A DNA stretch of 64,000 nt from an uncultured Flavobacteriaceae bacterium (GTDB taxonomy: Bacteria; Bacteroidota; Bacteroidia; Flavobacteriales; Flavobacteriaceae): the NCBI GenBank assembly GCA_947487895.1, contig CANKYF010000004.1, forward strand, positions 248,001 to 312,000, written 5' to 3'. Below are positions 16,172 through 34,970 of this stretch, one piece after another. Both the position numbers and the translations under genes were made by a program. The notes under the pieces are model-generated. The model had not been told where the DNA came from. It saw nothing but the letters and a program-made list of their open reading frames with translations, and did not search any database. The first letter of the stretch is position 1. Each line of letters begins with the position of its first letter.

Positions 16172-16708
16172 ATGTTTAAAAGCGCCAAAGAATCTCAAGT
16201 ATCTATTACAGAATTAATGTTGCCAGCTCACTCAAATTTTAGTGGTAAAATTCACGGAGGTCACATACTTAACTTAATGGATCAAATTGCATTTGCCTGT
16301 GCTTCTAAGCATTCTCAGAACTACTGTGTAACGGCTTCTGTAAATAGAGTAGATTTTTTAAATCCTATTGAAGTAGGTGAGTTAGTAACATTGAAAGCAT
16401 CTGTTAATTATACTGGTAGAACCTCTATGGTTATTGGTTTAAGGGTTGAATCTGAAAACGTACAAACTGGTGAGGTAAAACATTGTAATTCTTCATATTT
16501 TACAATGGTTGCAAAAGATTCTAATGGTAAAAACGCTTCTGTACCTGGTCTTATTTTAGACAGTGAACAAAGCGTAAGACGCTTTTCTAGAAGTATTGCA
16601 AGACAAGAACAGGCTAAAAACAGAACTTCGCAATTTAAATCTTCAGAATTTAAAATAGAAGATCATATTGATGCTTTAAAAGCTCATAATGTAAAATTAG
16701 AACTTTAA
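16172..16708 (+). CDS. Acyl-CoA thioesterase, YciA-like hotdog family
   Basis: A 178-residue cytoplasmic hotdog-fold enzyme that hydrolyses acyl-CoA thioesters. Family signatures are the early MLPAHSNFSGKIHGGHILNLMDQ (the catalytic-helix region with conserved Asn, Gly and Asp), SVNRVDFLNPIEVGELV and GRTSMVIGL. It begins two bases after the DUF3307 stop and so belongs to the satD operon. Its stop codon overlaps that of the convergent receptor gene by four bases, leaving no room for a terminator. The C-terminal 40 residues are charged and probably helical. Confidence 0.87.
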   Translation: MFKSAKESQVSITELMLPAHSNFSGKIHGGHILNLMDQIAFACASKHSQNYCVTASVNRVDFLNPIEVGELVTLKASVNYTGRTSMVIGLRVESENVQTGEVKHCNSSYFTMVAKDSNGKNASVPGLILDSEQSVRRFSRSIARQEQAKNRTSQFKSSEFKIEDHIDALKAHNVKLEL

Positions 16709-19233: not shown

Positions 19234-20137
19234 GAATTGTTACCACATTTGAATCACTTAATTTGTAAGATAAATTCATTGGTAGAGTAATGGCGTTTAA
19301 CGCATCATCAAGATTATCATGAGGAAACCCTCCTGTAAACAATCTATTAGTATTTACATTTTTAAATATTACCTGTAAATTATACTGTCTTTCTATTTCA
19401 GACAATACTTCACTGTAAGGTATTGCTTTAAATTCGCTCATATTTTCGGTCCATAAAGGAACCTTATTACCTGTTTTACCTGATATAAATTTATTGTTTA
19501 AAATTAAAAAAACATCTCCTGCTAACAATCTTTTATTGATTTTATTTGACTTTACATTTACTATACCTTCAAAACATTTTACCTCAAAATAATTGTGGCG
19601 TTGTTTTACATTGAATTGTGTTCCTAAAACTGTCACAATCCCTTGACTGGTTTTAACATTAAACGTACTTCCCTTTTCTACTTTAAAATAAGCTTCACCA
19701 TCTAATTTTAAAGTTCTATTATCGTTCCAGTTTTTAACATCATAATTTATTTCAGATAATGCATTGAGCTCCGCAATAGAATTATCAGGTAATTCAATAA
19801 TCGTTTTTTCTCCTGCAAGTGTTTTTACGTTACCACTTTCATTAAAAAATAACGTATAGTAAATACCTAAGCTTATTACAACTACACTAGCAATTTTTAA
19901 TAAAAAACTAAATTTATTAAGTTTTCTAACAGGCTTTTGTTGCTTATAATACGCTTTAAATGCCTTAAAATCTTTATTCTTATAAAAGTTAGACGCACTA
20001 AAATACTGAGCACTTTTTATCAGGTGTTCATTAAATTCATAGTCTTCCTGCTCACTAAACTGCTTCTTTTCAGCGTCAGTGAGATTGTCATTAAGCCATT
20101 TTTTAACTAAATCATCATTTTCCATAATCATTGACAT
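19214..20137 (-). CDS. FecR-type anti-sigma factor, cassette 2
   Basis: A 307-residue FecR. The cytoplasmic part has KKWLNDNLTDAEKKQF; a membrane helix lies at about 83-98 (LLKIASVVVISLGIYYTLFF); the periplasmic domain carries IIELPDNSIAELNALSEI, LDGEAYFKVEKG and VLGTQFNVK; the C-terminus has LDDALNAITLPMNLSYKL. Translation could begin at 20137, 20131 or 20125 (Met 1, 3 or 5). The promoter-like repeat ends only six bases before 20137, so one of the later Met codons may be the real start if transcription begins there. Confidence 0.88.
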   Translation of the reverse strand: MSMIMENDDLVKKWLNDNLTDAEKKQFSEQEDYEFNEHLIKSAQYFSASNFYKNKDFKAFKAYYKQQKPVRKLNKFSFLLKIASVVVISLGIYYTLFFNESGNVKTLAGEKTIIELPDNSIAELNALSEINYDVKNWNDNRTLKLDGEAYFKVEKGSTFNVKTSQGIVTVLGTQFNVKQRHNYFEVKCFEGIVNVKSNKINKRLLAGDVFLILNNKFISGKTGNKVPLWTENMSEFKAIPYSEVLSEIERQYNLQVIFKNVNTNRLFTGGFPHDNLDDALNAITLPMNLSYKLSDSNVVTIHGKENK

Positions 20138-20143
20138 CTATCT

Positions 20144-20173
20144 ATATAACAACTAGATTTTAAAAATTCCTGA
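20144..20173 (-). promoter_or_regulatory. Candidate ECF-dependent promoter in front of fecR (copy 1 of a 30-base repeat)
   Basis: This element fills nearly the whole 36-base gap between the sigma gene and fecR. On the minus strand it starts TCAGGAATTTTTAAAATC and ends TAGTTGTTATAT. The same 30 bases, with one difference (A/G at the seventh base), stand at 20749-20778 on the plus strand, facing the divergent lipoprotein gene. The CAGGA and TTGTTATAT blocks would be -35 and -10 elements. Two identically oriented copies before two genes of one system argue for the binding site of the adjacent ECF sigma factor. Confidence 0.65.
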
Positions 20174-20698
20174 TTATTTTATTTTAAATCCTTTTAATTC
20201 CTTTTTTAAAGTTTTAAAAGCTGTGTAAATTCTATATTCAACAACTTTCTGAGTAATTCCTAAAAGTTCTGCAATTTCACTATGCTTTTTGCCTTCAACT
20301 TTGTTCAATAAAAAAGCAACCCTATATTCTTCCTTTAAGCCTTCTAATACGCTTTTATATTGCTGTAAAAACTGTTCTTCTTCTAAAAGAAATTCTGGGG
20401 TCTCATTTGTATAGTTTTTTTTATTTTCTTGTTTATACTTTAGAACTACTTTTTCATGCTTTACGGCGTTTAAAGCCATATTATTGGCTACAGTATATAA
20501 ATAAGATTTTGCCTTTGATGAACTTACTGAATTACAATTATTCCAGAGTTTAACAAAAGCATCTTGAGCCATATCTACAGGATTAGATGTATCTCCATAT
20601 TTATAAAATAAAAAACTCTGTAAGTCTTTTATATACTTGTTATAAATAAACTCAAATACTTTTTCTTTACAAATGTCTTTGTGAAGCTCTTTTGCCAA
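20174..20698 (-). CDS. ECF sigma factor (RNA polymerase sigma-70 family), cassette 2
   Basis: A 174-residue ECF sigma. Region 2 is at about 18-80 (FIYNKYIKDLQSFLFYK, PVDMAQDAFVKLWNN, SKAKSYLYTVANNMALN) and region 4 at about 120-165 (LKEEYRVAFLLNKVEGKKHS, then EIAELLGITQKVVEYRIYTA). It resembles the cassette 1 sigma throughout, including the SKAKSYxY segment. It heads fecR and the receptor on the minus strand and diverges from the lipoprotein gene at 20811. No clear TAnnTTTG element is visible upstream, so its own promoter is unclear. Confidence 0.92.
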   Translation of the reverse strand: MAKELHKDICKEKVFEFIYNKYIKDLQSFLFYKYGDTSNPVDMAQDAFVKLWNNCNSVSSSKAKSYLYTVANNMALNAVKHEKVVLKYKQENKKNYTNETPEFLLEEEQFLQQYKSVLEGLKEEYRVAFLLNKVEGKKHSEIAELLGITQKVVEYRIYTAFKTLKKELKGFKIK

Positions 20699-21965: not shown

Positions 21966-21966
21966 A

Positions 21967-22000
21967 CTGCTTCAGCATTAAATGCTGAAGCAGTTTTTTA
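21967..22000 (+). terminator. Strong intrinsic terminator
   Basis: CTGCTTCAGCAT and ATGCTGAAGCAG form a perfect 12-bp stem with a 3-base loop, followed by TTTTTT. It lies only 12 bases before the next start codon, so the downstream genes either have their promoter within or upstream of it, or depend on read-through. Confidence 0.9.
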
Positions 22001-22012
22001 AAACCAATCATC

Positions 22013-22396
22013 ATGAGAAAAAAAACAATCGTCTTATTAATCATTGTAATTTCAGGTATTGCAGGGTATAACTACATTTACAAAGACCATAGGAATATTG
22101 AAAAGGAAAAAGCGGCCTTTACTCTAAAATCTACAGAACTTTCCAATGAGTTTTTAGTATCATCTTCAGATTCAGAAAAAAAATATTTGAATAAAACTAT
22201 TGAGATTTCTGGTAAAGTAACAGAGGTGGATAACAACACATTAGTTATTGATAATAATATTTTCTGTCAGTTTCTAAATCCAATATCTAACAGTATCAAA
22301 ACAGATGCAGTTATTACCATTAAAGGGCGCTTTATTGGTTATGATGACTTGTTAGAAGAAATTAAACTAGACCAATGCAGTTTAAGCAAAAATTAA
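22013..22396 (+). CDS. Membrane-anchored OB-fold (tRNA_anti-like) protein
   Basis: A 127-residue protein with an N-terminal membrane anchor (about 4-22, KTIVLLIIVISGIAGYNYI) and a periplasmic domain. The part from YLNKTIEISGKVTEVDNNTL to VITIKGRFIGYDDLLEEIKLDQCSL matches the tRNA_anti-like OB-fold family, in which the final Cys segment is conserved. Such proteins occur in Bacteroidota next to DUF5777, haem and YceI genes, as here. No activity is known; a periplasmic ligand-binding role is an inference. Confidence 0.78.
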   Translation: MRKKTIVLLIIVISGIAGYNYIYKDHRNIEKEKAAFTLKSTELSNEFLVSSSDSEKKYLNKTIEISGKVTEVDNNTLVIDNNIFCQFLNPISNSIKTDAVITIKGRFIGYDDLLEEIKLDQCSLSKN

Positions 22397-22434
22397 TCCA
22401 TTAACTAAACTTGAATTATTTATAAATACATATC

Positions 22435-23310
22435 ATGAAACCAAAATTTATGAAACACATTTTACTTTTCCTATTATTAAGTTTACCATTACTAACATTC
22501 TCTCAAGATGATTTACTTGATGAATTAGAGGCAGAAGCAGATGATTCTGAAGTGAAAAATTATACATCGGCGACTTTTAAAGGGCTAAAAGTTGTGAATT
22601 TTGAATCTACCAAATTGGTTGCAAAAGAAGAATTAACGTTTGTTGTATCTCATAGGTTTGGTACTTTAAAAGATGGTATTAACACATTTTTTGGTTTAGA
22701 TAACGCCGTAACAAGGCTAAATTTCGTATATGGAATAACAGATGGTTTAAATGTGAGTATATCAAGAAGTTCTGGAATTAAAGTATACGATGCCACCATT
22801 AAATATAACATTGTAAAACAATCTAAAAACGGATTTCCTTTTACAATAGTTGGATTTAATGCTATTGTTTTTAATTCTGGGCTTAGTGAACTAGATTATC
22901 CTTTATTAGAATTTAAAGATCGATTAGGATATACAACACAGCTTTTAATAGCAAGAAAAATGAGCACAAATTTATCTATAGAATTAGCCCCTACTATATT
23001 TCATGAAAATTTTGTAGCAAATGATTTGCAACACAATGTGCAATATGCTTTAGGTATTGCTGGAAGATATAAACTAAACAAACGGTGGTCTTTTAATGCA
23101 GATTATGGCTTTCATTTTAATAGAGCCGATAACTCTGTTTTTAGAAACCCGTTATCAATAGGTTTTGACTTAGAAACTGGAGGACATGTATTTCAACTTC
23201 ATTTAACTAACGCTCAGGCTATGTATACTAATGGTTTTTTAGGTCAAGCAGCAGGAGATTGGAGCGACGGAGATGTATATTTTGGATTTAACTTAAGTAG
23301 AAGATTTTAA
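22435..23310 (+). CDS. DUF5777 family beta-barrel protein
   Basis: A 291-residue exported protein with signal peptide ending LTFSQ (about 1-24; Met 6 at 22450 is an alternative start), an acidic linker (DDLLDELEAEADDSE) and then alternating beta strands typical of a small outer-membrane barrel. VVSHRFGTLKDGINTFFGLDNA and the closing Phe (NLSRRF) fit DUF5777. It is spaced 38 bases from the OB-fold gene and 16 bases from the haem lipoprotein. Role unknown; its place among a haem lipoprotein and a YceI protein suggests a redox or lipid-linked envelope function. Confidence 0.8.
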   Translation: MKPKFMKHILLFLLLSLPLLTFSQDDLLDELEAEADDSEVKNYTSATFKGLKVVNFESTKLVAKEELTFVVSHRFGTLKDGINTFFGLDNAVTRLNFVYGITDGLNVSISRSSGIKVYDATIKYNIVKQSKNGFPFTIVGFNAIVFNSGLSELDYPLLEFKDRLGYTTQLLIARKMSTNLSIELAPTIFHENFVANDLQHNVQYALGIAGRYKLNKRWSFNADYGFHFNRADNSVFRNPLSIGFDLETGGHVFQLHLTNAQAMYTNGFLGQAAGDWSDGDVYFGFNLSRRF

Positions 23311-23326
23311 TTAAGAACATATAGCA

Positions 23327-23686
23327 ATGAAAACGAAGCATTTAACTTACTTATTAGGAATATCACTTTTCTTATATAACTGCTCTAGCAGCAGCCCTAA
23401 CGATTTAATTGATCAAGAACCAGATCCAGATCCATCAACAGAAATCACTTATGATGATGATATTAAATCTATTCTAAATAATAGATGTACTGGTTGTCAT
23501 GGTAACCCTACTCAAAATGGCGCACCATTTTCATTAACTACATTCAATAGTGCCAAAAATAGAATTGACGACATTATTAGTAGAATAAATAATGCTAGTA
23601 ACCCAATGCCTCCTAGTGGTCTAATGTCCCAAGAGGTCAGAGATGAAATTCAACAATGGAAAGATGACGGTTTATTAGAAAACTAA
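23327..23686 (+). CDS. Mono-haem c-type cytochrome lipoprotein
   Basis: A 119-residue lipoprotein (lipobox LYNC at about residue 19) with a small cytochrome c domain. The haem-binding motif is CTGCH in the SILNNRCTGCHG segment, and the likely axial Met is in NPMPPSG; the C-terminal helix is EVRDEIQQWKDDGLL. It would carry electrons at the periplasmic face of a membrane, or sense redox state. It stands 16 bases after the DUF5777 gene and 31 bases before yceI. Confidence 0.87.
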   Translation: MKTKHLTYLLGISLFLYNCSSSSPNDLIDQEPDPDPSTEITYDDDIKSILNNRCTGCHGNPTQNGAPFSLTTFNSAKNRIDDIISRINNASNPMPPSGLMSQEVRDEIQQWKDDGLLEN

Positions 23687-23717
23687 ATATTTAAACAAAC
23701 TTTAAAAATACTTCATT

Positions 23718-24260
23718 ATGAAAAAATTTATTTATCTAATTGCTCTTTTAAGCTTTAGTGTTTACAGCCAAGGTAAATACTTAACAAAAACTGGAACGGT
23801 AAGTTTTGAAGCCTCTGTACCTTCATTTGAAGAAGTAAAAGCAAAAAATGATGCTGTAACAGCCATACTAAACACAGATAACGGTGATTTTGCTGCACTA
23901 ATTCTAGTGAAAGGATTCAGATTTAAAAATGCGCTTATGGAAGAGCATTTTAATGAAAACTATGCCGAATCTGATGAATATCCAAAAGCAACATTTAAAG
24001 GGAATTTAAATGGGTTTAATGTTTCATCAATTGATGGAAACTCAACTTTTAAAGTTAGTGGCTCCCTTACTTTTCATGGAAAATCTAAAGAAATCAGCGA
24101 CATTAACTGTAACGTTGTAAAAACAGATAAAGGACTTGAGCTTACTGGTAATTTCTCTGTTACACCTTCAGATTTTGATATTGAAATTCCAAAGATAGTA
24201 AGTAAAAAAATTGCCGAAGATATCGAGGTTTCTTTTAAATTTGATGTTATTAAGAAATAA
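23718..24260 (+). CDS. YceI family periplasmic protein
   Basis: A 180-residue exported protein with a short signal peptide (about 1-18, ending YSQG) and a YceI beta-barrel domain that in homologues binds an isoprenoid or fatty amide. Typical features are GTVSFEASVPSFEEVKAKN, the middle HFNENYAESDEYPKATFKG, and SGSLTFHGKSKEI. The substrate here is unknown. It closes the OB-fold / DUF5777 / cytochrome block, but only 27 bases separate it from the next gene, so transcription may continue into the nucleotidyltransferase cluster. Confidence 0.88.
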   Translation: MKKFIYLIALLSFSVYSQGKYLTKTGTVSFEASVPSFEEVKAKNDAVTAILNTDNGDFAALILVKGFRFKNALMEEHFNENYAESDEYPKATFKGNLNGFNVSSIDGNSTFKVSGSLTFHGKSKEISDINCNVVKTDKGLELTGNFSVTPSDFDIEIPKIVSKKIAEDIEVSFKFDVIKK

Positions 24261-24287: not shown

Positions 24288-25193
24288 TTGATTGCCCTAA
24301 AAACATTACTGTATTTCTCTATTTTTAAATATCCACTTACTAAAGAGGAAATTTACAAGTTTTCTGATGCGGACTCTAAAGAAGTAATAAATAGAGAAAT
24401 AGATATTCTTATAAAAAAGGGAATTGTCTTTAAATTCAATGAATTTTATACGCTCAGTAATGATAGCAAGTTTATTGATAGAAGATTAAAAGGAAATAAA
24501 ATGGCAAAAGCTATTATGCCCAAAGCCAATAAAGTTTCAAAATTCATTGCTAAATTCCCATACATTGAAAGTGTTTGTATTTCAGGTGCTTTATCAAAAG
24601 GGTATTATGATGATGATGGAGATATAGACTTCTTTATCATTACAAAGCCAAATAGATTATGGATAGCTAGAACTCTACTTATACTTTACAAAAAAATATT
24701 TCTATTAAACTCTAAAAAATATTTTTGCGTTAATTATTTTATAGGGAGTAATTATTTAAAAATTTCTGAGCAAAATAGGTTTACCGCAACAGAAATGGTT
24801 ACCTTAATGCCCATGTATGGTAAAGAAACTTTTAAGGCTTTTATAGATGAAAACCAATGGCCTAATAATTACCTACCAAACATACCATCTCATAACTTTT
24901 CTGCTATAAAAAACACAAAAAAAAGTTGGCTTTCAATCATTATTGAAAAAACTTTAAACACACCTTTAGGCAATTCTGTAGATGAATTACTTAGAAAAGC
25001 TACTTTAAAAAAATGGCATTCTAAATTTGGAAATCTACCACCCGAAGAATTTAAAATTGCTTTAAAATCTACCAAAAATGTATCTAAACATCACCCTGAA
25101 AACTCGCAAAGAATGGTGATTGATAGGTTGAACTTAGAATATAAGAAAATAGAGAAAGAACATAATTTACAAATACAACAAGAATATGCTTGA
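24288..25193 (+). CDS. Winged-helix nucleotidyltransferase-domain protein
   Basis: A 301-residue cytoplasmic protein. I keep the TTG start at 24288 because the next in-frame Met is about 70 residues in, past a clear winged-helix-like region (TLLYFSIFKYPLTKEEIYKF...EIDILIKKGIVFK). A polymerase-beta-type nucleotidyltransferase motif follows at about 104-118 (SGALSKGYYDDDGDIDFFI), with the Ser/Gly and paired Asp residues expected for metal binding. The C-terminal half is helical. It overlaps the first radical SAM gene by eight bases, which ties it to that pathway. Substrate unknown: it could activate a sugar or regulate the cluster by nucleotidylating a partner. Confidence 0.75.
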   Translation: MIALKTLLYFSIFKYPLTKEEIYKFSDADSKEVINREIDILIKKGIVFKFNEFYTLSNDSKFIDRRLKGNKMAKAIMPKANKVSKFIAKFPYIESVCISGALSKGYYDDDGDIDFFIITKPNRLWIARTLLILYKKIFLLNSKKYFCVNYFIGSNYLKISEQNRFTATEMVTLMPMYGKETFKAFIDENQWPNNYLPNIPSHNFSAIKNTKKSWLSIIIEKTLNTPLGNSVDELLRKATLKKWHSKFGNLPPEEFKIALKSTKNVSKHHPENSQRMVIDRLNLEYKKIEKEHNLQIQQEYA

Positions 25194-26649
25194 TATTGTT
25201 TTTTCACATTCTTACTACTATAAATTTGATCCTAAGCAGTGGAAAAACAAAACGCCATATCCACCTTTAGGAACACTGTATGCCGCATCCTATTTAAGAG
25301 AAAACGGTTACTCTGTAGGCCTTTTTGACTCAAATCTTATTGAAGACCCCAAAACAATCAAACCTTACCTTAACAAACATCTCCCAAAAATATTTGTTAT
25401 TTATGATGATGGTTTTAATTATCTAACAAAAATGTGCTTGACTACAATGCGCGAAGCTGCATTTAAAATGATTAGTATTGCTAAAGAAATAGACAGTAAG
25501 GTCATAGTTTGTAGTTCAGACTCAACAGATCATTATGAAAAATACTTAAATGCTGGTGCTGATTTTGTAATAAGAGGAGAAGGTGAAATTACCCTAAAAA
25601 AATTAGTTGATGCTATTTCTAATAATGTTATAACTTCTAACATTGAGGGAATTGTATATAAAAAAGAAGGTACAATTGTAGAAACCCCTAAACGCACAGT
25701 ATTACGAGATTTAGATGAACTTCCTTTACCTGCATGGGACTTAGTAGATGTAGAAGCCTATAGGAACGTTTGGGAAAGCGCCAATAAGAAATTCACCCTT
25801 AATATTGCCACCACTCGTGGTTGTCCGTTTAAATGTAATTGGTGCGCTAAACCTATTTATGGTAATAGATATAATTCTCATTCACCAGAATATATTACCA
25901 AACACATAAAACTCTTAAGTGAAACCTATGGTGTTAAAAGGTTTTGGATGTGCGATGATATTTTTGGATTAAAACCTAATTGGGTACAAAACTTTAATAA
26001 AGAATTAAAAAAAGAAGACCTTTCAATTTCTTATTATATACAGAGTAGAGTAGATTTACTTTTAAAAGAAGATACCATAGACGCATTAGCCGAAAGTGGG
26101 TTGGAAGAAGTATGGGTTGGTGCCGAAAGTGGCTCTCAAGCCATTTTGGATGCCATGGATAAAGAAACAAAAGTGGAACAAATTTATGAAGCCACTAGAC
26201 TTTTAAAGGCGAAAAACATTCGTGTAGCCTTTTTTATTCAATTTGGTTATTTAGGAGAAACCAAAGAAGACATAGGCAAAACAATTGCAATGATTAAGGA
26301 ATTGATTCCTGATAACATAGGTATTTCTGTATCTTACCCATTACCTGGAACAAAGTTTTATGATAAGGTAAAAGATGATTTAAAATTAAAAGCTAATTGG
26401 ACAGATTCTGATGATCTAGCTATGCTTTTTAAAGGCTCTTTTAATTCTAAATTTTATAAAAAACTCCACAGGTATGTTCACAAAGAATATAGAAAAAGTC
26501 AAGCGTTTTCATTTTTAAAGAAGGCATTAAAAAAGCCTTTTTCTATTAAGAAATCTGAGTTTAGATTATTAATACTTTCTCTGTATTACTATCCTGCGGC
26601 ATTTATAAATAAACTACAACTTAAAAACTTGAATCCAAGAAATGTCTAA
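25186..26649 (+). CDS. B12-binding-domain radical SAM protein, first copy
   Basis: A 487-residue enzyme. The N-terminal 150 residues form a Rossmann-type B12-binding domain (PPLGTLYAASYLRENGYSV, NAGADFVIRGEGE), without the DxHxxG motif, as in the BchE/HpnJ/HpnR class. The radical SAM domain follows with Cys213, Cys217 and Cys220 in TTRGCPFKCNWC, and later ESGSQAILDAMDKETK. Such enzymes methylate, cyclise or rearrange unactivated carbons. A paralogue lies at 27421 with a methyltransferase gene between. It overlaps both neighbours by eight bases, so the run is one translational unit. The substrate is unknown; a lipid or glycan precursor is plausible from the downstream glycosyltransferases. Confidence 0.88.
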   Translation: MLDIVFSHSYYYKFDPKQWKNKTPYPPLGTLYAASYLRENGYSVGLFDSNLIEDPKTIKPYLNKHLPKIFVIYDDGFNYLTKMCLTTMREAAFKMISIAKEIDSKVIVCSSDSTDHYEKYLNAGADFVIRGEGEITLKKLVDAISNNVITSNIEGIVYKKEGTIVETPKRTVLRDLDELPLPAWDLVDVEAYRNVWESANKKFTLNIATTRGCPFKCNWCAKPIYGNRYNSHSPEYITKHIKLLSETYGVKRFWMCDDIFGLKPNWVQNFNKELKKEDLSISYYIQSRVDLLLKEDTIDALAESGLEEVWVGAESGSQAILDAMDKETKVEQIYEATRLLKAKNIRVAFFIQFGYLGETKEDIGKTIAMIKELIPDNIGISVSYPLPGTKFYDKVKDDLKLKANWTDSDDLAMLFKGSFNSKFYKKLHRYVHKEYRKSQAFSFLKKALKKPFSIKKSEFRLLILSLYYYPAAFINKLQLKNLNPRNV

Positions 26650-27424
26650 CGATTTTGATGTTGCTGCTTTAGAATACGATACTAATTTCACTTTTTCTAA
26701 CATAGGAAAAGCACAAAGACATTTTGTATATCAATACCTTAAACCAATTCTTAGATCAAATACTAAGCTTTCTATCTTAGAAATTAATTGCGGTACTGGA
26801 GAAGATGCACTTTATTTTGCAAAACAAGGACATAATGTTACTGCCACAGACATTTCGCGAGGCATGATACAGGTAGCTAATTCAAAGTCTGCACCTAAAA
26901 ATCTTATTTTTAAAACATTAGACATCAATACCATTACTCAAACTACATTTACTAAAAAATTTGATATAGTATTTTCTAATTTTGGAGGGTTAAACTGCTT
27001 ATCTAAAAATAAACTTCAATATTTTTTAAACACATTACCAACTCTTTTAAAACCTAATGGTAAAATAATTATGGTAGTTATGCCCAAGCATTGCTTATGG
27101 GAGCGTGTCTATTTTAGTTTAAAAGGGAATTTTAAAAAAGCAAAAAGACGTAACACTAATAATTCTCTGTTAGTTAATGTAGACGGAACTTCTGTTGAAA
27201 CTTGGTATTATAATCCTGATGACCTTTTAGAATTTACAGAAAAAATATTTACTCAAAAAACAATAAAACCTATTGGTATTGCTATTCCTCCCTCCTATTT
27301 AGAGGGCTCTTTTTTGGCTAAAAAACCATTTTTGAATCTGTTAAAGTCTACGGAGCATATACTTAGGCAACCGTTTTGGGCAAAATATGCAGATCATTTT
27401 TTAATTGAATTAGAGAAAAAATGA
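26642..27424 (+). CDS. Class I SAM-dependent methyltransferase
   Basis: A 260-residue methyltransferase. Motif I is ILEINCGTGEDALYFA (about 45-60), followed by motif II TATDISRGMIQVA and the post-I acidic region; IVFSNFGGLNCLS corresponds to motif IV. It overlaps the radical SAM genes on both sides (eight and four bases). The C-terminal region (GTSVETWYYNPDDLLEF) resembles small-molecule O- or C-methyltransferases. It probably acts on the same intermediate as the two radical SAM proteins. Confidence 0.87.
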   Translation: MSNDFDVAALEYDTNFTFSNIGKAQRHFVYQYLKPILRSNTKLSILEINCGTGEDALYFAKQGHNVTATDISRGMIQVANSKSAPKNLIFKTLDINTITQTTFTKKFDIVFSNFGGLNCLSKNKLQYFLNTLPTLLKPNGKIIMVVMPKHCLWERVYFSLKGNFKKAKRRNTNNSLLVNVDGTSVETWYYNPDDLLEFTEKIFTQKTIKPIGIAIPPSYLEGSFLAKKPFLNLLKSTEHILRQPFWAKYADHFLIELEKK

Positions 27425-28797
27425 GTATCGTTCTAACACATGCATATTATCTATTTGAAGATGAAAAGGAAGCAAAAATAATGCGTCCTTACGCTCCTTT
27501 AGGCTTGTTATATGTTTCTGCTTATTTAAATGAAAATAACGTTGAAAACCATGTGTTTGATAGCACTTTTTACAGTCAAGAACTACAATTAAAATTCATA
27601 AAAGAAAAACAACCCAAAGCAGTAGCTATCTATACTAATTTAATGACAAAAATAAATGTCATTAAACTTATTAAAATTCTTAAAAATGAAGCAGAATATG
27701 GATTTCCAAAAGTAATTTTAGGTGGCCCAGATACAACCTATAACTGTGAAAATTATTTAAAAACTGGTGCCGATTTTTTAATTCTTGGTGAAGGAGAAGA
27801 GACTACTCTTGAACTTTACAATGCAATTATTAAAAAAGTATCTTATAAAGATATTTCAGGTATTGCTTTTCTAGAAAATAGTGTTTTACAGAAAACAACT
27901 CCAAGAATAAAAATGAAAAGTCTTAGAGACTTACCTTTTCCCAATAGAGAGGCAATACCGGTTAAAAAATACCTTGAAACTTGGAAAACACATCATGGGA
28001 AAAGTTCAATGACAATAAGCACACAACGTGGTTGCCCATATACTTGCAAATGGTGCAGTACTGCTGTTTACGGACAAAGCTACAGAAGACGTCCAGCAGA
28101 CATGGTGGTTGCAGAATTAAAAATGCTTAAAGAAACTTACAACCCAGATACTATATGGTTTGTTGATGATGTTTTTACAGTAAGTCATAAATGGTTAAAA
28201 GAATTTAGAGATACTGTTATTCAACAAAATGCCATTATTCCGTTTGAGTGTATTACAAGAGCTGAAAGATTAAATGATGACGTTTTAAAACAACTCAAGG
28301 AAGCGGGATGTTATAGAATTTGGATTGGAGCCGAAAGCGGCTCTCAAAAAATTATTGACGCCATGGACAGACGCGTTGATGTGAATGTAGTAAAAGAAGC
28401 CATTCAAAATACAAATGCTTTGGGTATGGAAACTGGTACATTTATCATGGTTGGGTACCCTGGAGAAGATGAAACAGATATTGAAGAAACCATTAATTAT
28501 TTAAAAGCTGCAAATCCAACTCATTTTACGATTACAGTGGCTTATCCCATTAAGGGCACATCGCTTTATAATGAAATCGAGGGGAAAATCACAATACAAC
28601 CTAATTGGGAAACCTCAACAGACAGAGATATTGATTTTAAAAGAACTTACTCTAGAAAGTTTTATGATTATGCCGTGAGGCGCATTGTTAATGAGGTAAA
28701 TTATGTTAAAAGTCATTACAGTATAGTAAAAAAATATAAACTAAAAATTAAATCTATAATCTCCCTATTATTAATGAAGTATTATAAATTTAGATAG
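27421..28797 (+). CDS. B12-binding-domain radical SAM protein, second copy
   Basis: A 458-residue paralogue of the enzyme at 25186. It has the N-terminal B12-binding domain (PLGLLYVSAYLNENNV, TGADFLILGEGEE) and radical SAM Cys205, Cys209 and Cys212 in STQRGCPYTCKWCS, followed by WIGAESGSQKIIDAMDRR and a C-terminal domain with YPIKGTSLYNEI. Two such enzymes in a row suggest sequential modifications of one scaffold. The start ATGA overlaps the methyltransferase stop by four bases. The C-terminus is basic and hydrophobic (SIISLLLMKYYKF), perhaps bringing it to the membrane. Confidence 0.88.
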   Translation: MSIVLTHAYYLFEDEKEAKIMRPYAPLGLLYVSAYLNENNVENHVFDSTFYSQELQLKFIKEKQPKAVAIYTNLMTKINVIKLIKILKNEAEYGFPKVILGGPDTTYNCENYLKTGADFLILGEGEETTLELYNAIIKKVSYKDISGIAFLENSVLQKTTPRIKMKSLRDLPFPNREAIPVKKYLETWKTHHGKSSMTISTQRGCPYTCKWCSTAVYGQSYRRRPADMVVAELKMLKETYNPDTIWFVDDVFTVSHKWLKEFRDTVIQQNAIIPFECITRAERLNDDVLKQLKEAGCYRIWIGAESGSQKIIDAMDRRVDVNVVKEAIQNTNALGMETGTFIMVGYPGEDETDIEETINYLKAANPTHFTITVAYPIKGTSLYNEIEGKITIQPNWETSTDRDIDFKRTYSRKFYDYAVRRIVNEVNYVKSHYSIVKKYKLKIKSIISLLLMKYYKFR

Positions 28798-28801
28798 TTT
28801 T

Positions 28802-30358
28802 ATGAATACGTTTAATATAAAAAGATATTTAAGTTTTGTAACAAAAGATTATGTTATTGTTACTACTATATTTTTTCTTTTAAGTTATATAGGTATTCTT
28901 AATCATGAAATTTGGTTAGACGAAGCTCAGCACTGGCTTTTAGCAAGAGATAGCAAATCACTTTCAAATTTAATTGAAATTACCCGATATGAAGGTCACC
29001 CCTTGCTTTGGAACATTTTACTTTTTTTTATCAGTAGATTTTCTGTGGACCCATTTTGGATGCAATTATTACATATTATTATATCAACATCAGCAATATT
29101 TGTTTTCTTAAAAAATGCACCATTTTCTCTAATTTTTAAAATAGCATTCATTTTTGGATATTTTACTTTTTTTGAATACAACTTGATCAGTAGAAATTAT
29201 GCATTAGGAGTATTATTTTTCTTTTTAGCATGTAGCACCTATAAATATAGAAAGGAAAAATTCATTCTTTTTGCTAGCTTCTTATCGTTGACGTGTAATA
29301 CTCATGCTATTTTTGTTGTTATAAGCTGTTGTTTAATGTTGTCTGTATTAATAGAACACATTATTTATAATAACAGTTTTAGAATACCAATAAAAATGAG
29401 GGTTGGTTTATTTATTTTTTCTATTGGTACACTTTTAGCCATTATTCAAATAATCCCTCCAGCTGATACACTTTTTTTTGAAAGCTCAAGTAACTTAAAA
29501 ATCTATCAAAAGATTTCGAAAGTTTTTGTAGCCTTTTTTAAAGGCATTTATACAATTCCAGATCTAAGAACAATCCATTTTTGGAATACTAATCTAATAA
29601 TAAACTTAAGCAAGCCTCTTGCTGCTATTTTAAGCTTAGCTTCATTTTTAATTCCTTGTTTTCTATTTTTCAAGAATAAAATAGTCCTTTTTTATGCTTA
29701 CCTAGCTATTATAGGCTCCATAATATTCTTTTTTGTTACTCAATTATCAGACACAAGATATCTAGGCATATGCTATTTGATTATAATTTCTGGTCTATGG
29801 ATTAATACTTACCAATCATTCGAAAAAAATAAATTAAACGCTTTAATTTCTATTACTCTTTTAGAAAAAATAAAGAAAGGTATTGTATATAGTATTTTAG
29901 GTATTCAATTAGTCTCTGGAATCTATGCATATTCCTTAGATTTAATACATCCATTTACTAATGCTAAGAAGACTTTGTCTTTTTTAAAGACAGCAGGACT
30001 AACTAACAAAACTATTGTTAGTAAAACATCTGATGGTACTGAACTGAGCTGCTACCTACAAAAACCAATCTATTTTGCATATTCAGGTCAATATCAAAGC
30101 TATTTTATATCAAGTAATCCGCTTCCTTGCACAACTGACCTAAAAGAAAAGATCATAAAGTCATTAGAAAATTTAGTTAAAACCGAAAAAGAATCAGTTA
30201 TTTTGATTTTAAACCAACCATTTTTTAATACTTTAAACTCAAACAATTGGTTGTCAATAAATAAAGAAATAAGGTGTAAACTTTTACAAAAATTTGAAGA
30301 AAGTATATTTAATAGAAATTATTATATCTATGAAGTATCAAAAACCATAAACTACTGA
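28802..30358 (+). CDS. Polytopic GT-C-like glycosyltransferase candidate
   Basis: A 518-residue protein with about ten to twelve hydrophobic segments. After the first helix comes HEIWLDEAQHWLLARD, an acidic loop in the position of the catalytic Asp/Glu of GT-C (family 39-like) enzymes, followed by ITRYEGHPLLWNILLFFI. GT-C enzymes move a sugar from a polyprenyl-phosphate donor outside the cytoplasm. The C-terminal 130 residues are a soluble domain. The gene is four bases after the second radical SAM gene. Specific family membership is not certain, but the LDEAQ...ARD...EGHP pattern is recurrent in uncharacterised bacterial proteins. Confidence 0.7.
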   Translation: MNTFNIKRYLSFVTKDYVIVTTIFFLLSYIGILNHEIWLDEAQHWLLARDSKSLSNLIEITRYEGHPLLWNILLFFISRFSVDPFWMQLLHIIISTSAIFVFLKNAPFSLIFKIAFIFGYFTFFEYNLISRNYALGVLFFFLACSTYKYRKEKFILFASFLSLTCNTHAIFVVISCCLMLSVLIEHIIYNNSFRIPIKMRVGLFIFSIGTLLAIIQIIPPADTLFFESSSNLKIYQKISKVFVAFFKGIYTIPDLRTIHFWNTNLIINLSKPLAAILSLASFLIPCFLFFKNKIVLFYAYLAIIGSIIFFFVTQLSDTRYLGICYLIIISGLWINTYQSFEKNKLNALISITLLEKIKKGIVYSILGIQLVSGIYAYSLDLIHPFTNAKKTLSFLKTAGLTNKTIVSKTSDGTELSCYLQKPIYFAYSGQYQSYFISSNPLPCTTDLKEKIIKSLENLVKTEKESVILILNQPFFNTLNSNNWLSINKEIRCKLLQKFEESIFNRNYYIYEVSKTINY

Positions 30359-30373
30359 TTTACTAAATAATAA

Positions 30374-31117
30374 ATGCTTAATTCTAAAAAAATAGTAGTT
30401 GTATTACCTGCTTATAATGCCGAAAAAACCCTTGAAAAAACATTCAAAGAAATTCCTCATGATATAGTAGATGAAATTATTTTGACTGATGATTATAGTA
30501 GTGATCAAACAGTAAATATTGCGAAAAAATTAGGAGTAAAGCACATTATTGAGCATCATAAAAATCTTGGGTATGGAGCTAATCAAAAGTCGTGTTATAC
30601 AAAGGCCAGCGAACTAGATGCCGATATTATTATCATGTTACATCCTGATTATCAATATGATCCAAAACTAATACTCGCCATGTGTTCGTTAATTGCTAAT
30701 GGCGTATATAAAGCTGTACTTGGTTCAAGAATTTTAGGCAAAGGTGCTCTAAAAGGGGGAATGCCTATCTATAAATATATTTCAAATAGATTTTTAACAG
30801 CCATACAAAATATACTAATGAATCAAAAACTATCTGAGTATCACACAGGTTTTAGATGCTTTGATGCCCAACTAATTAAGACAATCCCATACAACTCAAA
30901 TTCTGATGATTTCATTTTTGATAATCAGTTACTAGCGCAAATATGTTATAAAAAAGTTACAATTGGAGAAATTTCTTGCCCAACTAAATATGAAAAAGAT
31001 TCTTCTTCGATAAATTTTTCTAGAAGTGTAAAATATGGACTAGGAGTTCTATTAGTTTCCTCTCAATACTTTCTTCAGCAATTGGGTTTTAAATTCAAGC
31101 TATTTAAAAACATATAA
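30374..31117 (+). CDS. Family 2 glycosyltransferase, polyprenyl-phosphate type
   Basis: A 247-residue GT-A fold enzyme. Motifs are VVVLPAYNAEKTLEKTF at the N-terminus, the DDYSSD nucleotide-sugar Asp, an HPDYQYDP metal-binding region in place of the usual DADLQ, and EYHTGFRCF. Similar proteins make polyprenyl-phosphate hexose, which would supply the GT-C-like protein encoded just before it. It lacks the C-terminal membrane helices of GtrB-type enzymes. The gap from the preceding gene is 15 bases. Confidence 0.85.
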   Translation: MLNSKKIVVVLPAYNAEKTLEKTFKEIPHDIVDEIILTDDYSSDQTVNIAKKLGVKHIIEHHKNLGYGANQKSCYTKASELDADIIIMLHPDYQYDPKLILAMCSLIANGVYKAVLGSRILGKGALKGGMPIYKYISNRFLTAIQNILMNQKLSEYHTGFRCFDAQLIKTIPYNSNSDDFIFDNQLLAQICYKKVTIGEISCPTKYEKDSSSINFSRSVKYGLGVLLVSSQYFLQQLGFKFKLFKNI

Positions 31118-31178: not shown

Positions 31179-32177
31179 ATGCACAAAGACACTTCTAAAG
31201 TTTCGATAGTAATCCCCACTAGAAATAGGTTAGAATCTTTGAACAGAATTTTAACCTCTATTTCTAAACAAACTTATGCGCCTAGCCAATTGATTATTGT
31301 TGACTCTAGTGATAATCCATTAACTAAAAAGCATTTGAGTATTACTATTAATTTTGATTTACAAATTATTCATAGCAAACCGTCTGTGTGCTTACAAAGA
31401 AATTTAGGTATTAATCAATGTAATTCTGATTATATTCTTTTATGTGATGATGATATTGAAATTCCCAATGACTATATAGAACATTTAGTGAATTATTTAA
31501 AACAAAACAGTTCGGTAAATATTGTAAGCGGAATTGTATATGAAAAAAGAAATCAACAATGGAAATATGCCGAAAAAAAGAAATCGTTTTTTAAACTTCT
31601 GTATGCTCATATCTTCGGGTTATCAGTTTGGGCAGAGATTAAAAACACTAATTATCCTGCAAATAATATGATACAAAAATTTGTTTCCTATTATTTAGAA
31701 AAAGGAAACAGAATCGCAAAATCTGGATGGCCAATAGTTATAAATTACGAAGATCCTATTTTTAAAACGCCTATTTATAGCTTGATGGCTGCACTAATTA
31801 GATCTGATAAAATAAAAAAAGTACCTTTTGATACTTCTTTTTATGAAAATGGAATTGGAGATAATTATGATGTACTAATGGGTTTAAATAATGATGTTTA
31901 TATTATGAAACAACTCAAAGTTTTTCATCATGAAGAAAAAATAAATCGAGTAAAAAACAACAAAGCATATTATTATAGAGTTTCAGCATTACATTACATA
32001 TTACTAAAGCACAAAAAGTTTAATTTCAAAAATCGCATTTTCTTAATTTGGTCCTTACTAGGAAATTCATTTTTATTTATATTAAAAGGCAAAATTGAAT
32101 TGCTTTATTATAATTTTAAACTAATCGCTCAAGTAATCTTCAATAAAAATATTTACCGAAAAACCCTTTCACAATAA
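31179..32177 (+). CDS. Family 2 glycosyltransferase
   Basis: A 332-residue GT2 enzyme. VSIVIPTRNRLESLNRILTSI is the first strand region, LIIVDSSDNP the donor-binding site, and ILLCDDDIEIPNDYIE the DXD-type metal site; FYENGIGDNYDVLMGL would hold the catalytic Asp or Glu. A hydrophobic stretch near the C-terminus (IFLIWSLLGNSFLFIL) may tether it to the membrane. It probably adds a residue to the glycan assembled by this cluster; donor and acceptor are unknown. Confidence 0.85.
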   Translation: MHKDTSKVSIVIPTRNRLESLNRILTSISKQTYAPSQLIIVDSSDNPLTKKHLSITINFDLQIIHSKPSVCLQRNLGINQCNSDYILLCDDDIEIPNDYIEHLVNYLKQNSSVNIVSGIVYEKRNQQWKYAEKKKSFFKLLYAHIFGLSVWAEIKNTNYPANNMIQKFVSYYLEKGNRIAKSGWPIVINYEDPIFKTPIYSLMAALIRSDKIKKVPFDTSFYENGIGDNYDVLMGLNNDVYIMKQLKVFHHEEKINRVKNNKAYYYRVSALHYILLKHKKFNFKNRIFLIWSLLGNSFLFILKGKIELLYYNFKLIAQVIFNKNIYRKTLSQ

Positions 32178-32220: not shown

Positions 32221-33903
32221 TTGAAAACAATTTTCAGAAAATCATATTATTTAATTCCTTCAGAAAAAAGAAAAAAACTACCTACTTTTTTCTTTGTTTC
32301 AATGATTAATTCTTTTTTAGATTTTATTTCTATTGCTTTTTTAACACCGTTTGTACTACTTATTATTAATAAAGAGAAAATAGATACTTTTTTAATTACA
32401 AATTTTGATATTAGATATGAACAAAAACATATAATAGCCGCTTTAATTGGGCTTATTGTTTTTTATTTATTGAAAAATTTAATACAAGCTAGAGTCACTT
32501 TTATTCAATCCAAATATTTATACTCAATTGGGTCTGTCCTATCAAAAGATTTAACAAAAACTTTCATTAATGGTAGTTATAAAAACTTTTATTTATATGA
32601 TAAAGGAAAGCTTATACAGGATTTTCATAAACTACCTATGATCTTTATTACAAATGTTCTATCACCCATTTATAACCTTCTATCAGAAACAATTATACTG
32701 TTATTAATTGTGAGTGTTGGAATTTACCTAAACCCATATGTTACATTTTTCTCAATACTTTTTGTTTTAAGTTGTTCGACTATTCTATTCTTTTTAAGAA
32801 AAAACAAAACAAAATATTTTAATGAAACTATTGCTTCTTCTTATAGAGTAGCCTTAAATAATTTAATGAATATTTTAAATGGATTTATTGAAATTAAGAG
32901 CTCTGAATCTGAAAATAAATTCATTGAAAAATTCAATCATTCCAATAAAGAACACAATGATACAATGGCTGAATTAACAACTTTTAAATTAAACAATGTT
33001 AGATATTTAGAAGTATTAACTATCTGTTTTATTGCATTTACAATTGCATTCGTTTTATTAAATTCTTGGTCATTCAAAGACATGGTTTTATTATCATTTT
33101 ATGGTAGTGCAATCATAAAAATAATTCCTTCTTTCAATAAGATTATTAACGCATATGTAGATATTAAAAGTAATAAACATGCTGTAGATATTCTCACATC
33201 GTATCAGTTTAAAAATAGTATTTCGAAAAGTTCAATTCCATTTAAAGACTCGATAACTTTAAAAGAACTATATTTTAATTACCCTAATAAAGAAGTAATT
33301 ATTGATAGCATTAACTTGGAAATAAAAAAAGGAGATTTTATAGCTGTTACAGGAAAATCGGGGTGTGGAAAAACAACACTATTACATATCATTTCTGGGT
33401 TACTATCTCCAACTTCTGGTACCATTTTAATTGATAGTGAAATAAAACAAAAAGACAACTTTTTATCTTTTGCTTATTTGGTTTCTCAACAGTCCTTTAT
33501 TTTTCAAGGAACCATATTGGAAAATATAACGATGAATAAAACAAAAAGTGTAGATCTTAAACATATTAATGAGCTTATTGATGCTCTAGATTTAAGGCAG
33601 TGGTTAAATAGTCAGCCTAATGGTCTACGTACTAATTTAGTTTTAGATAGTAAAAGTATTTCTGGTGGCCAAAAACAAAGAATAGCCTTAATAAGGGCTC
33701 TTTATACGCGTCCAGAGTTATTACTCTTAGACGAAGCCACAAATCAATTAAACGAGACCTTAGAAAGAAAAATAATGAATTTTCTAAAAAAGAAAACTAT
33801 AGATAAAGAGCTTACTATAATTTCTGTTTTCCATAATAGTAATTTATTAGATTATGCAACAAAACAATTTTCTTTTAATGATCAGAACCTTTTTCGGTTA
33901 TGA
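32221..33903 (+). CDS. ABC transporter with fused membrane and ATPase domains, PglK-like
   Basis: A 560-residue half-transporter. It has six membrane segments (about 20-300) and a C-terminal ATPase: Walker A GKSGCGKTT, Q-loop VSQQS, signature SISGGQKQR, Walker B LLLLDEATNQLN and a His in SVFHNSN. ATNQLN departs from the usual ATSALD. Overall size and start (FRKSYYLIPSEKRKKL) resemble PglK, the flippase for lipid-linked oligosaccharides. The only start before the first membrane helix is the TTG at 32221. It overlaps the next GT4 gene by four bases. I infer that it flips the glycolipid made by this cluster. Confidence 0.85.
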   Translation: MKTIFRKSYYLIPSEKRKKLPTFFFVSMINSFLDFISIAFLTPFVLLIINKEKIDTFLITNFDIRYEQKHIIAALIGLIVFYLLKNLIQARVTFIQSKYLYSIGSVLSKDLTKTFINGSYKNFYLYDKGKLIQDFHKLPMIFITNVLSPIYNLLSETIILLLIVSVGIYLNPYVTFFSILFVLSCSTILFFLRKNKTKYFNETIASSYRVALNNLMNILNGFIEIKSSESENKFIEKFNHSNKEHNDTMAELTTFKLNNVRYLEVLTICFIAFTIAFVLLNSWSFKDMVLLSFYGSAIIKIIPSFNKIINAYVDIKSNKHAVDILTSYQFKNSISKSSIPFKDSITLKELYFNYPNKEVIIDSINLEIKKGDFIAVTGKSGCGKTTLLHIISGLLSPTSGTILIDSEIKQKDNFLSFAYLVSQQSFIFQGTILENITMNKTKSVDLKHINELIDALDLRQWLNSQPNGLRTNLVLDSKSISGGQKQRIALIRALYTRPELLLLDEATNQLNETLERKIMNFLKKKTIDKELTIISVFHNSNLLDYATKQFSFNDQNLFRL

Positions 33904-34970
33904 AGAAAAAACTATTATTTGTAATACCAATTTTCCCAAATAGTCTAGAAGACGACACGATTGTACCTTTTATTTTTCAATTTTGTCTTTACCTAAATGA
34001 TAATTATAATGATTTAGAAATAGATATTATGACGCTTCGATATCCTATAAAAAAGGATATGTATAGCCTTAATTCCTTAAACATCTACCCTGTTGGAGGT
34101 GGGTTTAAAAATAAATGGAATAGTCTTAGAGTAATTTACAAATCTGTTATCAAAGGTATTAGTTTATTTAAACAAAAACGTTATGATGGTGTTTTATCAT
34201 TTTGGTATTATGATACAACAATTGTAGGGACCATTTTAAATAGAATATTTAAAATACCTCATTATACATGGATGCAGGGGCAAGATGTAAAATCCGATAA
34301 TAAATATTTAAAGTTCATTAAACCTCAAAAAAACAAGCTAATTGTAGTTGGTAAAAATCAAAATGAACTTTTAATGCAACACCAAGGCTATAAAGCAAAA
34401 ATCATTGCTAATGTTGCTATAAACCCCAAAAACTTCCCAGAGCTAAATGTTGAAAAAAGAAATATAGACATTATAGGCGTAGGTAATCTTGGTGCCTTAA
34501 AAAATTATTCATTCTTTATTGAAATTATAGCAGAGTTAAAAAAGACATTTAAAAACATTAATGCTGTCATTTGTGGAGACGGAGAAGAAAGAGACATGTT
34601 ATTAAATAAAATTAAAACTTTAGGATTAACTAAAAATGTTAAACTATTAGGATATGTGTCTAATAAAAAAACTCGAGAACTTATGAATAACAGTAAAATT
34701 CTTTTACATACTTCAAAATTTGAAGGCAATTCAACAGTTGTTCAAGAAGCATTATTTTCGGGTTGTAAAGTTATAAGTACAGTGCCTTTGCAAGAAAATG
34801 TATTAAATTTTTTCTTTGAAGGAAAAAAAGATAAAATCGTTCAAAAATTAAAGCTAATGATTAACAATGAAGTTATGCAAACTGAACGAGTTCGTCATTT
34901 TAAAATAGAAGATACTGCGCATACTATTTATTCCTGTTTTTTCAACTCTAAAGAATCAAAAACAGTATAA
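33900..34970 (+). CDS. Family 4 glycosyltransferase
   Basis: A 356-residue GT-B enzyme. IDIIGVGNLGALKNYSFFIE starts the C-terminal domain; AVICGDGEERDMLLNKI and KFEGNSTVVQEALFSGCKVI (the EX7E-type donor site) are characteristic. The N-terminal acceptor domain is basic and contains FLKxKRYDGVLSFWYYD-like text typical of exopolysaccharide enzymes. It begins at an ATGA overlap with the ABC transporter. Its 3' end overlaps the convergent GT4 gene by 43 bases. Confidence 0.87.
   Translation: MKKKLLFVIPIFPNSLEDDTIVPFIFQFCLYLNDNYNDLEIDIMTLRYPIKKDMYSLNSLNIYPVGGGFKNKWNSLRVIYKSVIKGISLFKQKRYDGVLSFWYYDTTIVGTILNRIFKIPHYTWMQGQDVKSDNKYLKFIKPQKNKLIVVGKNQNELLMQHQGYKAKIIANVAINPKNFPELNVEKRNIDIIGVGNLGALKNYSFFIEIIAELKKTFKNINAVICGDGEERDMLLNKIKTLGLTKNVKLLGYVSNKKTRELMNNSKILLHTSKFEGNSTVVQEALFSGCKVISTVPLQENVLNFFFEGKKDKIVQKLKLMINNEVMQTERVRHFKIEDTAHTIYSCFFNSKESKTV

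Follow-up and report, generated by a model that had tools for sequence, protein, structure and literature searches.

What could a nucleotidyltransferase, two cobalamin-type radical S-adenosylmethionine (SAM) enzymes, and a methyltransferase be making together? The question is raised by a locus at positions 24288-28797 of the analyzed stretch of DNA (referred to here as the window), a 64,000-nucleotide segment from an uncultured Flavobacteriaceae bacterium (assembly GCA_947487895.1, contig CANKYF010000004.1, positions 248,001 to 312,000). Four open reading frames (ORFs) are located there, all on the + strand, with successive overlaps of 8, 8, and 4 bases. The first gene, NTase (24288..25193, +), has a TTG start and encodes 301 amino acids (aa), comprising a winged-helix-like N-terminal part, a Pol-beta/KNTase-type nucleotidyltransferase domain, and a helical C-terminal part. 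It is followed by rSAM1 (25186..26649, +; 487 aa), encoding a cobalamin-type radical SAM enzyme, by MT (26642..27424, +; 260 aa), encoding a class I SAM-dependent methyltransferase, and by rSAM2 (27421..28797, +; 458 aa), encoding a second enzyme of the cobalamin-type radical SAM kind, which shares 35% identity with rSAM1.

These four genes form a real, co-inherited module, which recurs in proximity to glycosyltransferase and transporter genes. We read it as a Bacteroidota biosynthetic module that would make or tailor an unusual component of a glycoconjugate at the cell surface by nucleotidylation and methylation, partly through B12-dependent radical chemistry, and we give this reading even chances.

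Inheritance of the four genes as one module

The distribution of the genes was surveyed in 199 genomes of the family, with cut-offs of E <= 1e-60 for rSAM1, E <= 1e-15 for MT, and at least 69% identity for an rSAM2 ortholog. NTase matches were obtained in 17 genomes, one of which (G154) was dropped for a short, broken match (E 4.6e-4) containing two stops. NTase, rSAM1, and MT are present in exactly the same 16 of the 199 genomes. Orthologs of rSAM2 occur in 12 of these 16 carriers and in none of the 183 other genomes (hypergeometric probability 3e-16); one of them (G112) is partial at a contig end, and the match in another (G193) reads through one TGA.

A second set, drawn from named genomes, comprised the 80 best of 95 loci; the window is not counted among them, and several of them end at contig ends. 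The ORF directly after NTase belongs to the rSAM cluster in 77 of the 80 loci, the MT cluster is represented in 74, and full-length rSAM2 orthologs are found in 61, with 3 further partial or split copies (L071, L077, and L093). The overlaps are conserved as well: NTase and rSAM1 overlap by 8 bases in 45 of 79 scorable loci, rSAM1 and MT by 8 bases in 30 of 74, and MT and rSAM2 by 4 bases in 30 of 64, although these 64 pairs may include two (L096 and L109) whose 'rSAM2' is a 25-26% match and probably a third radical SAM gene described below, rSAM3. Because the overlaps recur in relatives and NTase, rSAM1, and MT are common to the same 16 genomes, the four-gene arrangement is more than chance. 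Furthermore, pairwise protein distances of the four genes correlate with r of 0.83-0.94 over 54 loci, the permutation maximum being 0.37. An earlier interpretation made from the letters alone (the sequence-only reading) had described four genes of these domain types, overlapping in this manner, as one unit. Its coordinates, overlaps, and domain calls agree with ours, and the unity of the genes is borne out by co-occurrence in the family genomes and by the conserved overlaps; the contrary outcome that it had named, each gene scattered separately among unrelated neighbors, did not come out.

Beyond the family, matches to a 41-row NTase profile (E <= 0.001) were obtained in 33 of 395 Bacteroidota genomes, in 24 of which the score exceeds 190 bits. 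Stretches from 20 of these 33 genomes, hand-picked rather than random, were examined, and rSAM1 was found within the stretch at no less than 46% identity in 15 of the 20. Among the named strains that carry the module are members of Kordia, Winogradskyella, Dokdonia, Tenacibaculum, and Olleya. All four genes are present in, for example, Winogradskyella flava (L057) and Dokdonia pacifica (L061), and no rSAM2 was seen in the stretch from Kordia algicida OT-1 (L043).

Several features of this distribution count against our reading. The 80-locus set and the 199-genome survey share genomes, and their counts are not independent; a shared species history would also produce correlated protein distances. 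In 4 of the 16 carriers (G024, G090, G113, and G188) no rSAM2 ortholog was found, and in these same four genomes MT is diverged, with 37-40% identity. NTase occurs without rSAM1 in the stretch in 5 of the 20 phylum loci (L151, L159, L161, L162, and L163) and without any radical SAM gene in the stretch in one of the 80 loci (L098), and two loci of one genus (L148 and L149) have NTase and rSAM1 without an adjacent MT. The second radical SAM enzyme is dispensable in some carriers. Since rSAM2, rSAM1, or MT was not seen in the stretches of some carriers, NTase with rSAM1, usually accompanied by MT, seems to be the more stable core, with rSAM2 and other enzymes as additions.

One of the loci (L081) is labelled Saccharospirillaceae, the only label outside the phylum. 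The ORF two genes after its rSAM2 has a Por_Secre_tail domain (type IX secretion), and because of this domain beside the module, the contig is likely a mis-binned Bacteroidota contig.

Properties of the encoded enzymes

The nucleotidyltransferase scores 20.9 bits against Pfam NTP_transf_2, 0.1 bit under the cut-off of 21.0; it has no match in NCBIfam, and nothing below E 0.24 was found among Protein Data Bank (PDB) sequences. In the AlphaFold model, which has a predicted local distance difference test (pLDDT) score of 93.3, the N-terminus is helical and resembles a winged helix, the middle resembles a nucleotidyltransferase, and the C-terminal part is helical. Foldseek gave no match to this model at E <= 0.001; its weak matches relate one part to winged-helix regulators and another to the MNT antitoxin, AadA, and similar chains. 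Conservation within the family is strict: S99, G100, K104, D112, D114, N149, E169, K267, and H269 are found in 41 of 41 aligned sequences, and H268 in 40. The GS (S99-G100) and DxD (D112-x-D114) elements, which we take to be the motif of the Pol-beta nucleotidyltransferase superfamily, are thus intact in all 41 sequences. No close solved relative of this protein family was found.

Both radical SAM proteins carry the cluster-binding CxxxCxxC motif. The cysteines at which the sequence-only reading had pointed, Cys213/217/220 of rSAM1 and Cys205/209/212 of rSAM2, proved invariant in 32 of 32 and 24 of 24 aligned sequences, respectively. In Pfam, rSAM2 exceeds the cut-offs for both Radical_SAM (88.8 bits) and B12-binding (39.4 bits; cut-off 32.1), and rSAM1 exceeds that for Radical_SAM (73.1 bits), with its B12-binding score of 28.5 bits falling under the cut-off. 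The predicted model of rSAM1 has a mean pLDDT of 85.5, with values under 50 at residues 77-83, 214-226, and 404-413, of which 214-226 is the cluster loop, holding two of the three cysteines. Even though its B12 domain is under the Pfam cut-off, the model matches TsrM and OxsB across 440-602 alignment columns, and the structures retrieved with it (TsrM, MgmA, OxsB, TokK, AprD4, and CysS; E 5e-19 to 5e-14) are all cobalamin-dependent radical SAM enzymes, the strongest of these matches being TsrM (6wte, E 4.8e-19). By their cluster motif and N-terminal B12-binding domain, rSAM1 and rSAM2 may be assigned to this class. MT, for which an alignment of 28 sequences was made, scores 57.7 bits against Methyltransf_25, over the Pfam cut-off, and the solved sequences closest to it are class I methyltransferases of various kinds. 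In the comparison with PDB sequences, the solved relatives of rSAM1, rSAM2, and MT are all remote.

A finer classification was sought in NCBIfam. Among the 25 families listed for each of rSAM1, MT, and rSAM2 (of 33, 34, and 39, respectively), none reaches its cut-off. The assignment of the four proteins to curated families was consequently rejected, with no match for the nucleotidyltransferase and the others under cut-off.

Neighboring genes and the proposed surface product

The genes downstream of rSAM2 in the window, all on the + strand, provide a glycan context. The first (28802..30358, +) encodes a membrane protein that features of its translation, including what we take to be a GT-C-like motif, suggest by eye to be a GT-C-type glycosyltransferase; it has no Pfam or NCBIfam match, and its homologs follow rSAM2 in 6 of the 80 loci. 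Next comes a GT2 glycosyltransferase resembling polyprenyl-phosphate sugar synthases (30374..31117, +; Glycos_transf_2, 65.1 bits), which has homologs in 28 of the 80 loci and whose best NCBIfam neighbors are AglJ, PpgS, and dolichyl-phosphate hexose transferase, all far under cut-off. A further GT2 glycosyltransferase (31179..32177, +; Glycos_transf_2, 70.5 bits) precedes an ATP-binding cassette (ABC) exporter (32221..33903, +; ABC_tran, 96.9 bits), followed by a GT4-type glycosyltransferase (33900..34970, +), whose best NCBIfam matches are GT4 enzymes, far under cut-off. The best NCBIfam neighbor of the exporter is the PglK flippase, with 205 bits (E 1.5e-60) at a cut-off of 1000, so that it is not a called PglK.

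Genes of similar kinds recur in relatives. Any of four putative GT-C clusters is present in 45 of the 80 loci; of these, the GT87 cluster is over its Pfam cut-off and the PMT_2 cluster just under its own in the member tested. A third B12-type radical SAM gene, rSAM3, is found in 35 loci, as counted by BLAST clusters, since its hidden Markov model picks up every radical SAM protein. In the family survey (E <= 1e-60) it occurs in 2 of the 199 genomes, both carriers (p 0.006), and in one of them (G102) a distance of over 500 kb separates it from the module. A second methyltransferase, MT2, is present in 31 loci, and a lipoprotein family with a heme-like CxxCH motif in 26. This motif was seen in two members of the latter (L070 10144-11277, +; L101 5472-6608, +), which have no Pfam or NCBIfam match; the family is found in 4 of the 199 genomes, all of them carriers and in each case beside the module (p 3e-5), with one match reading through two TAA codons. 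Sulfotransferases are also among the neighbors.

In some Flavobacteria (L063, L076, and L087), GT87, the CxxCH lipoprotein, rSAM3, and c378, a multi-span membrane protein that is flippase-like by eye, follow the module, and the same four partners stand before it, in another order, in distant Bacteroidia (L101, L102, and L108; the c378 match in L101 is weak, at 53 bits). Partners that stay with the module through a change of order argue more strongly for a shared function than adjacency alone does. In three loci without rSAM2 (L038, L062, and L064), the opposite strand holds a multi-span membrane protein of 402-411 aa (in L064, Polysacc_synt at 21.2 bits, under the cut-off of 28.2), a GT2 glycosyltransferase, and a PNP_UDP_1-type protein; the last two are also found beside complete modules (L034, L054, L073, and L091). 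The PNP_UDP_1 gene, nucleoside phosphorylase-like (e.g., L038 16186-16932, -), lies beside the module in 8 of the 80 loci, and its product possibly removes 5'-deoxyadenosine or S-adenosylhomocysteine, or is part of the pathway.

Gene fusions connect the nucleotidyltransferase with glycosyltransferases directly. All 4 NTase-profile matches in ORFs longer than 600 aa, from four distant Bacteroidota genomes, are GT4 fusions with the NTase domain on the C-terminal side (L160 8743-10731, -; L161 8919-10925, -; L162 8154-10124, +; L163 7843-10239, +). The first is followed by rSAM1 (57%), and the other three have no rSAM1 in the stretch. Because these fusions occur without rSAM1 nearby, they suggest that the nucleotidyltransferase has a role of its own in glycan assembly. 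Other fusions join two methyltransferase domains (L038) or rSAM1 and a methyltransferase (L158). The neighborhood is accordingly larger than the sequence-only reading described: the unit of four genes stands, and recurring glycosyltransferase and flippase-like genes surround it.

It is these neighbors, namely putative GT-C, GT2, and GT4 glycosyltransferases, flippase-like proteins, and sulfotransferases, along with the NTase-GT4 fusions, that led us to the glycoconjugate reading. In the mechanism that we propose, the nucleotidyltransferase would attach a nucleoside monophosphate to its acceptor, either a small substrate or a sugar-like intermediate, activating or tagging it. The two radical enzymes, using methylcobalamin and a 5'-deoxyadenosyl radical, would act on unactivated carbons of the same scaffold, most likely by C-methylation, and MT would methylate an oxygen or a nitrogen. 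The glycosyltransferases encoded downstream might then build up the product attached to a lipid carrier, and a transporter resembling PglK or Wzx would flip this lipid-linked form, presumably toward the cell surface. According to the sequence-only reading, paired radical SAM enzymes of this class usually act one after the other on a single scaffold; the pair itself is confirmed, and such succession is conceivable here, but in 4 of the 16 carriers no rSAM2 ortholog was found.

The same genes could alternatively serve a diffusible specialized metabolite, for example an aminoglycoside- or nucleoside-like one, which would be glycosylated and exported, with the nucleotidyltransferase tagging or protecting it in the manner of aminoglycoside nucleotidyltransferases. 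The weak AadA-likeness of the nucleotidyltransferase and the resemblance of rSAM1 and rSAM2 to AprD4, which acts on an aminoglycoside, are consistent with this, as are the PNP_UDP_1, SPASM-rSAM, and extra methyltransferase genes in variant loci. A major facilitator superfamily (MFS) transporter in L094 and an amidohydrolase in two expanded clusters (L150 14631-15788, +; L156 13180-14355, +) fit a soluble product as well. The AprD4 fold match is, however, no stronger than those to TsrM or MgmA, and GT-C-type, polyprenyl-sugar-type GT2, and flippase-like proteins, several of them called under cut-off, fit a lipid-linked product better. We regard a diffusible product as unlikely. As a side observation, the L150 amidohydrolase is nearest to aminofutalosine deaminase, far under cut-off.

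Upstream of the module, the window contains a co-directional run of genes (22013-24260) encoding a tRNA_anti-like protein (22013-22396, +), a DUF5777 beta-barrel (22435-23310, +), a cytochrome-like CxxCH lipoprotein (23327-23686, +), and YceI (23718-24260, +), as assigned by Pfam. The gaps are 38, 16, and 31 bases, then 27 to NTase, and a terminator-like hairpin (21966-21994) lies 5' of the run. YceI or DUF5777 is found in 16 of the 80 loci, and both are neighbors of the module in two distant loci as well (L099 and L100). DUF5777 is present in 96 of the 199 genomes, 13 of the 16 carriers versus 83 of the 183 others; being enriched in carriers but common alone, the DUF5777, cytochrome, and YceI genes were rejected as an obligate part and are a neighbor rather than a proven part. 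Farther upstream (16705-20698), a TonB-receptor-like protein with a Plug domain is encoded, together with a putative FecR-type anti-sigma factor and an extracytoplasmic function (ECF) sigma factor on the same strand, the latter two judged by translation.

The YceI family binds polyisoprenoids, and its adjacency in the window bears on another explanation, in which the radical SAM enzymes modify the lipid itself, be it the polyprenyl carrier or some lipid of the membrane, in the manner of HpnJ, HpnR, and ladderane-type enzymes, before the glycosyltransferases decorate it. The better NCBIfam neighbors of these enzymes include HpnJ and TIGR04072 (lipid); HpnJ and BchE are the two best models for rSAM1 and the third and fourth for rSAM2. 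The scores, nevertheless, are 125-166 bits against cut-offs of 481-578 (for HpnJ, TIGR03471, 134.6 bits with rSAM1 and 124.6 with rSAM2 at a cut-off of 577.6), and all the lipid-related models stay far under cut-off. DUF5777, the marker of the YceI neighborhood, occurs in 83 genomes lacking the module. The hopene-cyclase family is matched over cut-off in a single carrier (G102; 31.2 versus 26.1 bits, model positions 99-287 of 319), and the window genome and the 14 other carriers show no match. A hopanoid branch was rejected, with the cyclase in 1 of 16 carriers, not the window genome, and HpnJ and HpnR far under cut-off; modification of the lipid in general seems to us rather improbable.

Turning back to the glycoconjugate reading, further points have to be set on the opposite side, besides the transporter, the amidohydrolase, and the frequency of DUF5777 already described. 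The likely position of the third catalytic carboxylate of the nucleotidyltransferase is held by Asn149, invariant in all 41 sequences, and for this reason catalysis is not assured; the likewise invariant Glu169 might act as a substitute. Two of the four GT-C clusters are recognized as such by eye only, c378 has no Pfam or NCBIfam match, and the flippases were called from matches under cut-off or by their appearance. Moreover, the downstream glycosyltransferases vary between loci, as in any variable polysaccharide region.

The wider consequence, which we put forward tentatively and as less probable than the reading itself, would be a class of surface glycoconjugates found throughout the Bacteroidota, with a head group that receives a nucleotide tag from a new winged-helix enzyme of the Pol-beta type and is then C-methylated by radical enzymes dependent on B12, one to three in number. 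If true, a cell-surface structure would depend directly on vitamin B12 from the surroundings, and the module offers a testable link between B12 supply and the bacterial surface. Cobalamin-dependent radical SAM enzymes have been described as a largely untapped reservoir, in which uncharacterized members far outnumber characterized ones (PMC8992657). A compact, co-inherited set in named strains allows a defined substrate hunt and brings with it a family of nucleotidyltransferases for which no close solved relative was found.

Comparison with known systems

The characterized cobalamin-dependent radical SAM enzymes TsrM, OxsB, TokK, CysS, MgmA, and AprD4 share with rSAM1 the fold, the CxxxCxxC motif, and the arrangement of a B12-binding domain and a radical SAM core; in structural alignments, however, they are only 13-21% identical to it. 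No described pathway with these four genes was found in the open-access literature, as judged on titles and the openings of abstracts, in keeping with what the sequence-only reading had said. It had also named a hopanoid or other characterized pathway as a possible match, and none was found for the window genome.

As a special case of the glycoconjugate reading, the genes could serve to tailor the outer, species-specific glycan in the general protein O-glycosylation system of Bacteroidota. According to one report, this system includes a flippase, variable glycosyltransferases, and a species-specific outer glycan, and its glycans are commonly methylated (PMC12871550). The outer-glycan loci (LFG) resemble the present neighborhood in these respects, and an uneven distribution, as in 16 of 199 genomes, would fit. 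The described loci start with metG followed by wzx, a layout not kept across the phylum (PMC12871550). No MetG is among those ORFs of the window that were annotated, and the word 'radical' appears 0 times in the main text of PMC12871550. We consider this special case improbable.

A phosphonate or phosphinate pathway of the Fom3/PhpK kind is suggested by PhpK (TIGR04479) being the best NCBIfam neighbor of rSAM2, and yet the scores of 145 bits for rSAM2 and 126.9 for rSAM1 are well below the cut-off of 600. The PEP_mutase cut-off is exceeded in 6 of the 16 carriers; only one of these matches (G179) is strong and full-length, at 251.9 bits, the other five being partial (31.8-55.8 bits). In the window genome the match is partial, at 28.3 bits, under the cut-off of 31.5, and control genomes match too (11 of 14, with 9 of 14 over cut-off). 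The phosphonate pathway was rejected on these grounds, and we hold it to be very improbable.

What the module shares with fosfomycin biosynthesis is, rather, a logic. Its nucleotidyltransferase is of the Pol-beta type, a fold presumably other than that of the cytidylyltransferases Fom1 and PhpF. In fosfomycin biosynthesis, Fom3 methylates cytidylyl-2-hydroxyethylphosphonate (2-HEP), a precedent for a nucleotide-tagged substrate, and the Fom1-Fom3 pair combines nucleotidylation with a subsequent B12-dependent radical SAM methylation (PMC8158854). Because the PEP_mutase match of the window genome is partial and under cut-off and the radical SAM enzymes are far below the PhpK cut-off, the likeness is one of analogy only, and as such fosfomycin may serve as the nearest working analogy. 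The kinds of enzymes encoded by the module are known; their combination, the nucleotidyltransferase family, and the product would be new.

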